Below are positions 16,789 to 24,018 of a stretch of 64,000 nucleotides of DNA, one piece after another. A program made the translations under genes and the position numbers. The stretch is taken from positions 1 through 64,000 of the forward strand of contig JABFGB010000022.1 of assembly GCA_013112715.1 (NCBI GenBank). The letters are read 5' to 3'. The notes beneath the pieces are model-generated. The model searched no databases. It was not told the DNA's origin and was given only the letters and a program-made list of their open reading frames with translations. This DNA comes from Chloroflexota bacterium (GTDB lineage: Bacteria > Chloroflexota > Anaerolineae > Aggregatilineales > J027). How positions within the stretch are numbered: the stretch's first letter is position 1; the number at the start of each line of letters is the position of its first letter.

Positions 16789-17523
16789 ATGAGTACCGAC
16801 GTATCCGTATCCCCCCAAACCGATATTGTTCAACAGCAGGTTCACTATGGCTGGCGGCGCAAATTGATGCGCGATTGGCTGCTCCGTCCAATCGGCTTTC
16901 GTGTGATTGTGCGCCCGACCATCTTTGGGACAGAATATGTTCCCGCCAGCGGCCCAACCCTGTTGGTCATGAACCATATCGGCTTTCCTGATCCAGTGGT
17001 GGTAACAGGGGCGGTCACATCGCGCTATGTCATCCCAATGTCCAAAATCGAAAATTTCAATTCGCCCTTTATCGGCTTTCTGGCACGGGCATGGGGGGCG
17101 TATCCGGTAGATCGGGATAAAGTGGATCGGCAGGCGCTTGAAAACACGATTGCTCTGTTAAAAGCGGGCCATTGTGTTTTGATTGCCCCGGAAGGCACAC
17201 GCCAACAGGCTATGATTGAAGCCAAAGAAGGGTTCACTTATGTTGCAGTTAAATCCGGCGCGACGGTTGTGCCGATTGGCTTGGAAGGGACACATTTGGT
17301 TGGCAGCAATATGAAACGGCTGCGGCGTACCCCGATTGAGATTCGTTTTGGGCCAGCCTTCCGCTTTAAGACGGGGGGGCGTTCACATGTGCCGCGTCCT
17401 GAGATGCGCCAGATGACCCAAGAGGCGATGTATCAATTGGCCCAGTTGGTCAATCCCGAACGGCGCGGTTTTTATACCGATCTATCGCAGGCTACGACGG
17501 AAACATTGGAATTCGTATCGTGA
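16789..17523 (+). CDS. plsC: 1-acyl-sn-glycerol-3-phosphate acyltransferase (PlsC family)
   Basis: Transfers an acyl group to lysophosphatidic acid in phospholipid synthesis, at the inner membrane face. The 244 residues hold the family's motif I as NHIGFPD (62-68, HX4D) and motif III as APEGTR (133-138). A Gly/Pro-rich segment near FIGFLARAWGAYPVDR sits where motif II lies. The gene starts 5 bases after the pseudouridine synthase, so they share a transcript. Other members acylate other lysolipids, so the exact acceptor is inferred. Confidence 0.85.
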   Translation: MSTDVSVSPQTDIVQQQVHYGWRRKLMRDWLLRPIGFRVIVRPTIFGTEYVPASGPTLLVMNHIGFPDPVVVTGAVTSRYVIPMSKIENFNSPFIGFLARAWGAYPVDRDKVDRQALENTIALLKAGHCVLIAPEGTRQQAMIEAKEGFTYVAVKSGATVVPIGLEGTHLVGSNMKRLRRTPIEIRFGPAFRFKTGGRSHVPRPEMRQMTQEAMYQLAQLVNPERRGFYTDLSQATTETLEFVS

Positions 17524-17532
17524 AAATTGCCC

Positions 17533-17561
17533 ATGACAAATTTTGCGTAACCGGGTATCAT
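17533..17561 (+). promoter_or_regulatory. Promoter of glmS leader
   Basis: ATGACA (17533-17538, five of six to consensus) and TATCAT (17556-17561) with a 17-bp spacer. It lies just after the plsC stop and would start an RNA near 17568, about 60 bases before the ribozyme cleavage site. Confidence 0.55.
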
Positions 17562-17591
17562 GTGACTTATCGTATCCAAAAAAGATGAAAG

Positions 17592-17790
17592 GAAGGCCGT
17601 CGAGCGAAAACAGTCTGAGGGGATAATAGCGCATGGCCTGTGCGTAAACTTCACTTCACAGGTGACGAGGTAACGGTTCCTGCCGAGGGGCAGTGCTAAC
17701 CCTGTAACAAGGGGAAAATCGAGGTTTCAGCGGATGCCGTTCGGGGTAAATCATCACTACTCCGGTTACTCCCCACACAACAAGCAGGTT
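17592..17790 (+). ncRNA. glmS ribozyme (GlcN6P-responsive self-cleaving leader)
   Basis: The 390-base space before glmS contains conserved glmS-ribozyme blocks in order. AGCGC (17628-17632) gives cleavage between A17628 and G17629. CCTGTG/CACAGG (17637-17642/17657-17662) forms P1. GACGAGG (17664-17670), ATCGA (17718-17722) and GCGGATGCC (17730-17738) follow. A GGGGTAA/TTACTCC arm downstream fits a P4-type stem. In the family, glucosamine-6-phosphate acts as cofactor for cleavage and lowers glmS mRNA. The segment between GACGAGG and ATCGA is enlarged and has two extra small hairpins (CTGCC/GGCAG and CCCT/AGGG). The rest of the leader, to 17913, shows nothing clear except the ribosome binding site. 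Confidence 0.8.
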
Positions 17791-17913
17791 TTTTCATAAA
17801 CCCCACTGGTGACAGCGGGACAACTCCGCCTGCCGTGATGAGGCTCTAGGTATTTTTGCCCAGAGAGCATATCTATTTGCGTTCCTCAAAATCAAATAGG
17901 AGGCTATTAGGCC

Positions 17914-19758
17914 ATGTGTGGAATCGTTGGTTACGTCGGTGGGCGTGATGCTGCGCCGATTATCCTGAACGGCTTGCAATTGTTGGAATATCGCGGTTAC
18001 GACTCCGCTGGTATCGCCATTTTAGAATCAAACGGTCAAATCCAAGTCCGGCGTCAGGTCGGCAAATTGGGCAATCTGCGCCACGAAGTTGAACTCGCCC
18101 CCGTCAAAGGGTCGCTGGGTATCGGGCATACCCGTTGGGCGACACACGGCGCACCCAGTCAGCGTAATGCCCATCCCCACACCAGCATGGATGGCGCAAC
18201 CGTCGTCGTCCATAACGGCATTGTGGAAAATTTCTTGTCCCTGCGTGCCGAATTAGAAGCGGAAGGGGTCGTGTTTTCATCTGATACCGATACTGAAGTG
18301 ATTGTGCATTTGGTCGAACGCTATCTCTCCGCAGGCAAGGACATCACCGCCGCGACCCAACTTGCCGTACAGCATTTGTGTGGGGCACACGCCATCGTCA
18401 TCATGAGCGCCCATTATCCCGGTCAATTGGTTGTGGCGCGGATTGGCAATGCGGGTGGGGTGGCGATTGGCTTGGGCCAAGATGAAATGTTTATCGCCTC
18501 CGACATCCCCGCTATTTTGGAACATACCCGCCGCATGGTCTTTTTGGAAGATCGGCAGATGGCAACCATCACCGCTGATGGCTACACCGTTCAAACGATT
18601 GATGGTGTACCCATCCAAGCAGTAGTACATGATGTCCCCTATGACCCTATCAGCGCCGCCAAAGGGGAATATCGCCATTTCATGCAAAAGGAAATCCACG
18701 AACAGGCCCGTGCTATTACCGATACCATCGGCGGACGGGTAGATTTTAAGACGGGTGAAGTCTTCCTGCCTGATTTACCCCTTACCGCTAACGAAGCCAA
18801 ATCACTGCAACGGCTGATTACGGTAGCGTGTGGCACAAGCTACTATTCCGGCCTGATCGGGAAATTCGCCATCGAAAAATTAGCCCGTCTGCCTGTTGAG
18901 GTGGATTATGGCAGCGAGTATCGTTATCGTGACCCCGTATTGGACGAACACTGCGCGATGTTGGCAATCACCCAAAGTGGCGAAACGGTGGACACCCTCG
19001 CGGCGATGGAAGTGGCGAAACACTATCGCATTCGCCTGTGGAGTATTGTGAATGCACTCGGTAGTCAAGCCATGCGGATTGCGGATGGGTTTATCACGAT
19101 GCAGACTGGCCCGGAAATTGGCGTAGCCTCCACCAAAGCCTTTACTGCCAGTGTGGTAGACCAGATTTTACTGGCGCTCTATCTAGGGTATCTGCGTGGC
19201 ACACTGACCGAAAAAGACATGATCGCCTATACCGCCGACCTCGCCACTTTGCCCGATTTGGTGGGGCGGGTATTGAGTGATGAACACGCCATTGAGCAAT
19301 TGGCAGGCCGCCTCTATCACTACGAAGATTTCCTCTATCTAGGGCGGGGGATTAATTATCCTGTCGCGCTCGAAGGGGCCTTAAAGCTCAAAGAAATCAG
19401 CTACATCCACGCCGAGGGCTATCCGGCGGGTGAGATGAAACATGGCCCGATTGCCCTGATTGATGAAAATTTGCCCGTCGTGGTGGTCGCGCTGCAAGAT
19501 GAGGTCTACGACAAGATGCTCAGTCAAATTGAGCAGGCCAAAGCACGCGGCGGCATCGTCATCGCTATTGCGACAGAAGGGGATACCCTGATCGCCGAAA
19601 AAGCCGACCATGTGTTGTATGTCCCGCGTGTCTCGTGGTTATTGAGTCCGGTGGTGGCGGTCATCCCACTGCAACTGCTGGCCTATCATATCGCGGTACG
19701 ACGCGGGGCGGATGTTGACCAACCGCGCAACCTTGCCAAGAGTGTCACCGTCGAATAA
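17914..19758 (+). CDS. glmS: Glutamine-fructose-6-phosphate aminotransferase (isomerizing)
   Basis: Makes glucosamine-6-phosphate from fructose-6-phosphate and glutamine, the entry to UDP-GlcNAc and cell-envelope glycans. The N-terminus MCGIVGYVGGRDAAPI carries the catalytic Cys2 of the class II glutaminase, followed by GHTRWATHG. Two SIS sugar-isomerase domains follow (ACGTSYYSG and ITQSGETVDTL in the first; LGRGINYPVALEGALKLKE in the second), and the C-terminus PRNLAKSVTVE is the usual one. AGGAGG lies 10 bases before the ATG. Length 614 is typical. The upstream ribozyme indicates feedback by its product. Confidence 0.97.
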   Translation: MCGIVGYVGGRDAAPIILNGLQLLEYRGYDSAGIAILESNGQIQVRRQVGKLGNLRHEVELAPVKGSLGIGHTRWATHGAPSQRNAHPHTSMDGATVVVHNGIVENFLSLRAELEAEGVVFSSDTDTEVIVHLVERYLSAGKDITAATQLAVQHLCGAHAIVIMSAHYPGQLVVARIGNAGGVAIGLGQDEMFIASDIPAILEHTRRMVFLEDRQMATITADGYTVQTIDGVPIQAVVHDVPYDPISAAKGEYRHFMQKEIHEQARAITDTIGGRVDFKTGEVFLPDLPLTANEAKSLQRLITVACGTSYYSGLIGKFAIEKLARLPVEVDYGSEYRYRDPVLDEHCAMLAITQSGETVDTLAAMEVAKHYRIRLWSIVNALGSQAMRIADGFITMQTGPEIGVASTKAFTASVVDQILLALYLGYLRGTLTEKDMIAYTADLATLPDLVGRVLSDEHAIEQLAGRLYHYEDFLYLGRGINYPVALEGALKLKEISYIHAEGYPAGEMKHGPIALIDENLPVVVVALQDEVYDKMLSQIEQAKARGGIVIAIATEGDTLIAEKADHVLYVPRVSWLLSPVVAVIPLQLLAYHIAVRRGADVDQPRNLAKSVTVE

Positions 19759-20604: not shown

Positions 20605-21060
20605 TTACATGAGATGATAAATTTCCACTTCTGACCAGTGCAAGGCCATATATTCAGCAACGAGGCGGCGATGACAATGGTCTGGTTCATGTTCGCTGCA
20701 TAATAGGCAAGCACGATGGTTTTGCCACCACTGACGATCTAATTGGGCAATGAGGTTTCGTTTTTCCAAGAGACCTTTAAATGCGACTTCATATTGATCC
20801 CATGCCGAATCCTCCCGGTATTGTTTTAAGAAGGATTCTTCAGGGGCCATCTCTGGCATATAGCGATAATCACAGCTAATCAAATTTTGCAGCAAATAAG
20901 GGAGGTCGCGCCCTTTGGCAAAACCGCTGAGTTGGGAATCGGGTTTAAGGCGTGTATCTACAAGAACTTGGATCCCATGATTTTTCAAAAGGCCAAAAAA
21001 TTGTTCGGCCGTTTTTTGAGTAAATCCGATTGTGTAGAGATGAATTGGCTGTACTATCAA
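20605..21060 (-). CDS. DUF488 protein (short form)
   Basis: A 151-residue DUF488 protein. It begins HLYTIGFTQKTAEQFF, has the DTRLKPDSQ segment, and ends with the conserved LLCSEHEPDHCHRRLVAEYM, whose Cys and His residues could form an active or metal site. The biochemical activity of the family is not established as far as I know. The start is TTG overlapping the TGA of the upstream DUF488 gene (TTGA), with GAGAGG 5 bases before, so translation is probably coupled. This form is the one usually paired with the dual-OB protein that follows it. Confidence 0.82.
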   Translation of the reverse strand: MIVQPIHLYTIGFTQKTAEQFFGLLKNHGIQVLVDTRLKPDSQLSGFAKGRDLPYLLQNLISCDYRYMPEMAPEESFLKQYREDSAWDQYEVAFKGLLEKRNLIAQLDRQWWQNHRACLLCSEHEPDHCHRRLVAEYMALHWSEVEIYHLM

Positions 21061-21653
21061 AAAAGCCTCTCTTGGATAAACTCCTCTGGAAAGTTTTTAG
21101 CGGTGATAGGTGTGACATTCCCATCCCGTTCAATATGATTCACTACTATATCAACCTCATTATCTATGATTTTCAATTTGGGGTCAACTAGCGAACGAGC
21201 AATTAAATGATGGCGGTGGCATTCTAGGGGGTTGCCTTCACTGCACATAATCGTGACATTGCCACCCAGTTCAGTCGCCTGACGCACAATAGTCAAAAGA
21301 TGGGTGACCCCCTTTAGATATTTTTCATGGCACATCATTGCCTTATAGTCTACTTTTTTGAGGAACTCAGCCCGTGTCGTATCTTCATCGGGCAGCTCAT
21401 CGTCTTTATAAAGTTCGGCTTCTTTAGGGCGTCCCCCCAAATATTCGCCTGCATAGCGATATTGGATGCCACGCTGTTCTAAAAATGCTTGGAGTTCAGA
21501 TTTATTGAATTGAGGCGCAAATTTGCTGTAGGGGGCACTTCGTACATCTACCAATACGGTGATATGGTAGGTTTGGAGCAAAGTCAAAAATTCTTCAGAA
21601 GTGTGGTTGCTATGACCAATGGTGTAGAGGGTAAGTTTTTCGGGTTCATTCAT
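21057..21653 (-). CDS. DUF488 protein (long form, copy 1)
   Basis: A 198-residue DUF488 protein. It has LYTIGHSNHTSEEF at the N-terminus, DVRSAPYSKFAPQFNK, and the conserved MCSEGNPLECHRHHLIARSL near the C-terminus. It is a close relative of the gene at 23482-24018: both share TIGHSNH, DxRSAPxSxFxPxFNK, LGGRPK and CHRHHLIARSL. It opens the three-gene set DUF488-DUF488-dual-OB. A 9-bp inverted repeat directly abuts its start codon and an extended -10 promoter lies 35 bases upstream. Confidence 0.85.
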   Translation of the reverse strand: MNEPEKLTLYTIGHSNHTSEEFLTLLQTYHITVLVDVRSAPYSKFAPQFNKSELQAFLEQRGIQYRYAGEYLGGRPKEAELYKDDELPDEDTTRAEFLKKVDYKAMMCHEKYLKGVTHLLTIVRQATELGGNVTIMCSEGNPLECHRHHLIARSLVDPKLKIIDNEVDIVVNHIERDGNVTPITAKNFPEEFIQERLF

Positions 21654-23481: not shown

Positions 23482-24018
23482 TTACCCTGTTTCCCCAAAA
23501 TCCGCAGTAGAAATCGGACGCAGTTCACCATCTTTCAAAATATGCACCATCTCAATGCTGACCTCATCCCCGACGATTTTCAACTGAGGGTCAAGCAGCG
23601 AACGGGCAATTAGATGATGGCGGTGGCATTGGTCAGGGTCGCCTTCACTGCACATAATCGCCACTCGACCCGCCTGTGCCTCAACTTGCCGAAGCAGCGC
23701 CAGCAAATCCCGGATGCCTGCCTGATACCATTCCTGCTGCATGACCAATCCAAAATCCACTTTGTCATTGACATAAACATTGGGGTCTTTCGGTCTGCCA
23801 CCCAGCGCCTCCCCACTAAAATGATAGGTCATGCCGTGTTCGGGTAGGGTGCTTTCAAGGCGCTTTTTATTAAAATGCGGCGAAAATCGGCTTTGTGGAG
23901 CACTGCGAATATCCACCAAGTCCGTAATCGCATGTTGTTTCAACAACCCCAAAAAATCATCAAGCGGGTGATTGCTGTGTCCGATGGTATAAAGCGTCAG
24001 GCTTGCACTTCCACTCAT
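23482..24018 (-). CDS. DUF488 protein (long form, copy 2)
   Basis: A 178-residue paralogue of the DUF488 protein at 21057-21653. It keeps LYTIGHSNHPLDDF, DIRSAPQSRFSPHFNKKRL, LGGRPKDPN and IMCSEGDPDQCHRHHLIARSL, and its C-terminus also aligns (KIVGDEVSIEMVHILKDG). It heads a set with hicA and hicB on the minus strand. The BRO-N gene and HicAB therefore lie between two related DUF488 copies. The upstream extended -10 resembles that of copy 1. Confidence 0.85.
   Translation of the reverse strand: MSGSASLTLYTIGHSNHPLDDFLGLLKQHAITDLVDIRSAPQSRFSPHFNKKRLESTLPEHGMTYHFSGEALGGRPKDPNVYVNDKVDFGLVMQQEWYQAGIRDLLALLRQVEAQAGRVAIMCSEGDPDQCHRHHLIARSLLDPQLKIVGDEVSIEMVHILKDGELRPISTADFGETG

Follow-up and report, generated by a model that had tools for sequence, protein, structure and literature searches.

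A glmS-class element in the leader of a Chloroflexota glmS gene

The window, a 64,000-nucleotide stretch of Chloroflexota DNA, contains an open reading frame that encodes GlmS (MCGIVGY start; Pfam GATase_6/7 and two SIS domains). The 5' leader of this gene carries an element at 17619-17843 that is very probably a glmS-class self-cleaving riboswitch, its cleavage and ligand being those expected from the known class (Table 1). A first-pass annotation had placed a glmS ribozyme with an enlarged core at 17592-17790, directly before glmS and in a host outside the Firmicutes. Both the gene and the host assignment hold: the best GlmS relatives among named genomes are all from Chloroflexi/Anaerolineae metagenome-assembled genomes (MAGs), with 73% identity for JACRBK010000564.1, and the host is an Anaerolineae-related member of the Chloroflexota. 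The element overlaps the proposed interval, but its 5' partner strand begins only at 17619 and its 3' end lies beyond the one first noted, at 17843, once P4 and the second strand of P3.1 are included.

Four conserved blocks, AGCGC, GACGAGG, AUCGA and GCGGAUGCC (17730-17738), occur in the order first described. The departure of the first core strand from the standard was also read correctly (GCGCA here vs the usual GCGCC), and the segment between GACGAGG and AUCGA, estimated at about 47 nt, is exactly 47 nt long and holds two hairpins. We find the catalytic and pocket nucleotides of the class in place (A-1, G1, C2, the catalytic G, AUCG and GCGGAUGCC), together with P1, P2 and the P2.1/P2.2 double pseudoknot, in which the outermost P2.2 pair (5-53) is A/A and not of the usual form. 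The RF00234 alignment further contains the P3/P3.1 pseudoknot and a P4 with an A-rich internal loop and a GNRA tetraloop. The last G of GACGAGG, G17670, is the counterpart of the catalytic guanine Tte G40 / Bsu G42 (numbering of PMC11602151).

Table 1. Parts of the element and its surroundings (positions in the window)
Feature	Position	Strand	Basis or remark
P0 5' strand GGGGAUAA	17619-17626	+	In leader, ends 2 nt upstream of scissile A-1; partner-swap tests
Predicted cleavage site A-1/G1	17628-17629	+	RF00234 alignment
P2.2 5' strand GCGCAUG	17629-17635	+	Position 5 is A, not C; C2-G56, G3-C55 and C4-G54 kept in alignment A2
P1 hairpin GCCUGUG/CACAGGU, 7 pairs	17636-17663	+	6/7 pairs changed on both sides, 52 loci
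J1/2 core GACGAGG	17664-17670	+	A2 alignment, covariation
P2.1 5' strand CGA	17666-17668	+	Within GACGAGG; pairs with UCG of AUCGA
P2 5' strand AACGG	17672-17676	+	Partner 17737-17741; 3/5 pairs covary, other 2 invariable
41-nt insert UU-(hairpin A)-CUAA-(hairpin B)-GAAA	17677-17717	+	Stands in for short P2-to-P2.1 linker
Hairpin A CCUGCC GAGG GGCAG U G	17679-17695	+	7/7 pairs with double changes, 52 loci, 93.8% of cells paired
Hairpin B CCCU GUAACA AGGG	17700-17713	+	All 4 pairs changed on both sides; 97.6% of cells paired
AUCGA, with UCG as P2.1 3' strand	17718-17722	+	Invariant in A2; partners 17666-17668
P2.2 3' strand AGCGG	17729-17733	+	Position 53 is A, not G
P2 3' strand CCGUU	17737-17741	+	Covariation
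P3 hairpin CGGGGU/ACUCCG	17742-17764	+	Sequence
P3.1 5' strand UCAUCAC, in P3 loop (L3)	17751-17757	+	Class-wide swap test, z = -4.7
P0 3' strand UUACUCCCC, one bulged C	17766-17774	+	Between P3 and P4; swap tests; MFE and centroid folds
P4 domain AGCAGG/CCUGC, internal loop AUAAA + ACAA, GUGA tetraloop	17783-17834	+	RF00234 alignment
P3.1 3' strand GUGAUGA, complement of L3	17835-17841	+	RF00234 alignment, swap test
Shine-Dalgarno-like AGGAGG of glmS	17898-17903	+	Sequence
glmS, regulated gene	17914-19758	+	ORF; Pfam GATase_6/7, two SIS domains

A cmscan search of 451 nt (17500-17950) against all 4227 families at a relaxed threshold returned RF00234 as the sole family (29.4 bits, E = 3.7e-5), with a match at 17617-17843 that covers the full length of the model (1-167). 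The RF00234 hit that had been proposed as a check was thus obtained, though only below the curated limit: the score does not reach the gathering cut-off of 37 bits, a curated detection threshold and no property of the molecule, and cmscan at gathering thresholds gave no match in the window. Relatives that share the window's insert do lie above the cut-off, for example locus L017 at 67.4 bits. Across the whole 5.55 Mb genome the element is the single RF00234 match (E = 1.1e-4). We dropped folding stability as evidence, the minimum free energy (MFE) fold of the whole stretch being no more stable than those of shuffles (z = 0.21) under a fold model without pseudoknots.

A promoter-like site at 17533-17561 scored no better than shuffled sequences. 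Further along the window, three neighbouring look-alike ORFs (20605-21060, 21057-21653 and 23482-24018, minus strand) resemble the DUF488 type by eye.

Distribution in the Chloroflexota

RF00234 matched 216 of 396 genomes of the class at E <= 0.1, with 116 above the cut-off, and 28 of 41 genomes of the order. By these counts, glmS ribozymes are common in the class and nothing exceptional. Of 166 class loci retrieved with RF00234, 143 have a GlmS N-terminus directly downstream, and the core anchors could be parsed in 159.

From an alignment of relatives with 52 rows we built an insert-aware covariance model, R1, which scores the element at 92.7 bits (E = 1.5e-19); this E-value is optimistic because the window's own sequence is one of the 52 rows, while the gain elsewhere is unaffected. 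R1 found 233 of the 396 class genomes at E <= 0.001 and also detects genomes that were left out of its building. Among 19 named Chloroflexota MAGs it recovered 16, vs 12 by RF00234, and among those gained over RF00234 is G421, the closest relative. Across the phylum R1 matched 137 of 400 genomes, and matches of insert length also occur outside the class (coded families f72, f73 and f109). Current annotation therefore overlooks much of this regulation, given that RF00234 at its cut-off reports 116 of 396 class genomes, and not the window, vs 233 for R1.

Two hairpins beside the sugar-binding pocket

The form of the element is typical of Chloroflexota: next to the pocket that binds the sugar there are two added hairpins, and a further helix spans the cut site. 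The insert replaces a 3-nt linker after the P2 5' strand, just 5' of the A and U of AUCGA, the nucleotides that line the GlcN6P pocket in solved glmS ribozymes, and it leaves P2.1 and the catalytic G unaltered. In the 159 parsed class loci the segment between GACGAGG and AUCGA measured 8-10 nt (plain, n = 23), 29-30 nt (n = 6) or 39-116 nt (n = 130). The mode of the long segments is about 48-54 nt, making the window, at 47 nt, an ordinary member, and nearly all of the 130 long loci read GGUU-(hairpin A)-(C/U)UAA-(hairpin B)-GAAA-AUCGA. The first-pass annotation of an enlarged core was thus right as to homology, position and hairpins, but the RNA is no rare outlier; most glmS ribozymes of the class have the same insert.

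Covariation in alignment A2, which holds 52 distinct class sequences, identifies hairpins A and B as real conserved structures. All 11 of their pairs are changed on both sides, P1, P2, P2.1, P2.2, A and B jointly have standard pairs in 96.4% of cells, and the covariation score is 0.622, where shuffled alignments reach 0.179 and slid structures no more than 0.139. The P0 and P3 columns of alignment A1, being out of register, were left out of the pair counts. Catalytic and pocket nucleotides are near-invariant in A2. A one-off insertion or an assembly error was ruled out, as an identical or near-identical insert is present in four more genomes of the genus (L048, L052, L053 and L054) and the class shows covariation.

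The insert could also be something more than part of the ribozyme, such as a second sensor or a protein-binding site, in which case the hairpins would be a functional module of their own and not just passive support. Conservation is strong at the joints GGUU, CUAA/UUAA and GAAA while the stems vary, as for a defined three-dimensional motif, and across a tree of 135 GlmS sequences the full insert was gained or lost on only some 10 occasions. However, the loops of both hairpins are unconserved, and the 23 plain and 6 one-hairpin loci still mostly precede glmS, so the insert is dispensable in some lineages. We consider a separate module fairly unlikely.

Two further arrangements were seen in the class. 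Six loci (L032, L061, L168, L179, L189 and L220) are intermediate, with a single hairpin in the form GGUU-hairpin-GAAA-AUCGA. In L011, L015, L020, L021, L028 and L152, the P2-P2.1 linker is plain and a hairpin lies instead between AUCGA and GGCGG, in the P2.1/P2.2 loop.

P0, a helix across the cleavage site

The leader strand GGGGAUAA is complementary to UUACUCCCC, which joins P3 and P4, and the pairing also appears in both the MFE and centroid folds. Positions 1-19 of the RF00234 model, which correspond to the 5' stretch of P0, are unpaired. For 73 distinct class leaders, chosen so that more than 3 of 12 positions separate any two of them, pairing with their own partners averaged -11.2 kcal/mol vs -7.9 kcal/mol with swapped partners (z = -13.1; 5000 permutations, fixed 22-nt partner window), and a wider 50-nt partner window gave z = -9.5. 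The two strands change together in L018 (GGCAGACGA/ACGUUUGCC), L043 (AGAGAGUAUU/CAUACUCUCU), L029 (GAGAAGACGA/ACGUCUUUCUC) and L006 (GGAGAAAG/UUUUCUCC). The same swap test in Bacillota gave no pairing signal among 27 distinct leaders (z = -0.4). An artefact of G-rich leaders was ruled out, since swapping partners weakens the pairing and the Bacillota control is flat. P0 was also found in loci that lack the insert and hence characterises the group and not the insert.

The outer P2.2 pair

The usual C5-G53 pair is missing in the window, which has A5/A53 together with U6. Within the class C5-G53 occurs in 67-68 loci, and A5 with A53, mostly with U6, in 73-74, which makes A5/A53 the commonest type. 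The two types have switched about 10 times on the GlmS tree (135 sequences). U6 is in excess in the A/A type (57/74 vs 36/68, p = 0.003), but the excess vanishes after correction for phylogeny (median p = 0.6). Nor did the presence of the insert prove to be tied to A5/A53 beyond shared descent.

Substitutions at 5-53 are very harmful in the minimal core, at a cost of about 1000-fold (Andreasson and colleagues, PMC7125110); nonetheless the pair is poorly conserved, and the P2.2 bulge has been proposed to be mobile between positions 6, 5 and 4 (PMC7125110). We suggest that a U6-A53 pair with A5 bulged may bridge the weak outer end of P2.2, which would fit the mobile-bulge idea. Because the association depends on phylogeny and is lost on correction for relatedness, U6-A53 was not upheld as a proven pair and stays at the level of a suggestion.

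The absent C5-G53 pair bears on whether the RNA still cuts. It could descend from a glmS ribozyme and no longer cleave, or glmS could be under an ordinary binding riboswitch or protein-bound control, in either case with a non-catalytic fold. The importance of the pair to catalysis in the minimal core (PMC7125110) would fit such a loss, as would an insert that abuts the pocket nucleotides and an RF00234 score under the cut-off; yet nearly all relatives, widely diverged as they are, retain A-1, G1, C2, G3, the position of the catalytic G, AUCG and GCGGAUGCC, and the roughly ten interchanges between A/A and C/G types would be hard to explain were one type dead. A terminator-like site was also sought in the leader, and none was found. 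On this balance a loss of cleavage appears quite improbable. The lack of an RF00234 match at the gathering score could be cited for a resemblance by chance, or for a structured leader of unrelated origin, but either is extremely improbable given the E-value of 3.7e-5 over all families, the single match in the genome, glmS downstream here and in 143/166 relatives, and the covariation.

Relatives upstream of other genes

In some class genomes there is a second copy that is not upstream of glmS; the downstream gene calls are Pfam-supported for representatives. Nine loci (L177, L183, L208, L235, L237, L241, L251, L259 and L337), in hosts that include Anaerolinea sp. Tomsk_49_42 and Anaerolineaceae UBA5365, have the glutamine synthetase gene glnA directly downstream. 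Apart from L241, all of these are changed at position 4 and combine AGCGG with AGCGGCUG or AGCGACUG, which would suit a bulge of P2.2 at that position; the pocket nucleotides are retained. A literature search of partial coverage found no description of glmS ribozymes upstream of glutamine synthetase.

Twelve loci (L326-L331, L333, L334, L336, L339, L340 and L341) are followed by a gene for an AraC/Ada-like protein and then by an EamA transporter gene. These RNAs form a diverged glmS-like family that RF00234 mostly misses, and all 12 come from a single coded family (f32); they mostly have AGCGGCUG, UCACGAGG, AUCGGAU-N-GAUC and an extra hairpin before P4, and their 5' ends are resolved except in L326 and L330. 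The sequence AGCG(G/A)CUG...AGCGG is found in most copies linked to glnA or ada and permits C5-G54 and U6-A53 with position 4 bulged.

Other downstream genes include a glutamate-synthase-like gene in L035 (Pfam Glu_synthase) and in L038 and L325 (sequence resemblance), and a DegT/DnrJ aminotransferase gene in four loci (L154, L159, L165 and L224). In L016, L019, L147 and L216 the downstream gene is a GTPase-SIS fusion that itself precedes glmS. In L024 a glmS-like ribozyme lies upstream of a fused CofD(YvcK/GlmR-like)-phosphoglucomutase/phosphomannomutase gene, a fusion that places two steps linked to GlcN6P use within one protein.

Proposed mechanism

GlcN6P is the product of GlmS, and in B. 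subtilis the downstream glmS mRNA with its 5'-OH is degraded by RNase J. By analogy, GlcN6P would bind the preformed P2/P2.1/P2.2 double pseudoknot of the Chloroflexota element and act as cleavage cofactor, with cleavage expected between A17628 and G17629. The 5'-OH downstream mRNA would then decay by the RNase J route, and because the cleaved mRNA would be degraded, GlmS synthesis would fall. The genome encodes an RNase J-type protein (588.6 bits, above the cut-off), which is compatible with the B. subtilis decay route. In this RNA the two hairpins sit in the linker entering the ligand pocket, and P0 clamps the leader immediately before the cleavage site onto the junction of P3 and P4, where it would hold the 5' product on the ribozyme after cleavage. 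The core of the glmS ribozyme is marginally stable (PMC11602151), and we think that this fragile core is stabilised from the periphery by P0 and the two hairpins.

A broader joint reading, which we put forward tentatively and hold to be possible rather than probable, is that the GGUU-A-CUAA-B-GAAA insert and P0 define a distinct Chloroflexota subclass of glmS ribozymes. P0, by holding the 5' product, could alter product release or make cleavage reversible, and in part of the phylum this subclass may have spread beyond glmS, reaching genes for glutamate synthase, GlmR-GlmM and Ada/EamA as well as glnA. If so, GlcN6P would be a wider signal for nitrogen and the cell wall.

Comparison with known glmS ribozymes

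Cofactor-dependent RNA catalysis has one of its models in the glmS ribozyme, which is also a target for drugs. The structural and mutational work in PMC11602151 and PMC7125110 rests on few Bacillota sequences. A large natural family that has an altered outer P2.2, an insert by the cofactor pocket and a helix spanning the cut site offers a direct test of what the core tolerates, and also lets the published idea of a mobile P2.2 bulge (positions 6, 5 and 4; PMC7125110) be tested.

Our literature search on Deinococcus or Chloroflexota glmS ribozymes yielded nothing usable, and no Deinococcus glmS on plasmid records was among the matches listed. McCown, Roth and Breaker in 2011 (RNA 17:728) reportedly described several Deinococcus-Thermus glmS variants with additional stems in the catalytic core. 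By that account, core insertions as such would already be known.

Like the canonical glmS ribozymes of B. subtilis, B. anthracis and T. tengcongensis (RF00234), the element has the A/GCG cleavage context, GACGAGG, AUCGA and GCGGAUGCC, the helices P1, P2, P2.1 and P2.2, the P3/P3.1 pseudoknot, P4 with its A-rich internal loop and GNRA tetraloop, and a place upstream of glmS. Unlike them, it has an insert of 41 nt with two hairpins at a place that takes up about 3 nt in Bacillota (segment of 8-10 nt in all Bacillota loci parsed), a P0 across the cleavage site that Bacillota lack, and A5/A53 in place of C5-G53. Some families of the class differ from the window in having a plain linker, one hairpin, or an insert between AUCGA and GGCGG (e.g. 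L011, L020, L021 and L028), whereas most glmS ribozymes of the class share with it both the two-hairpin insert and P0.
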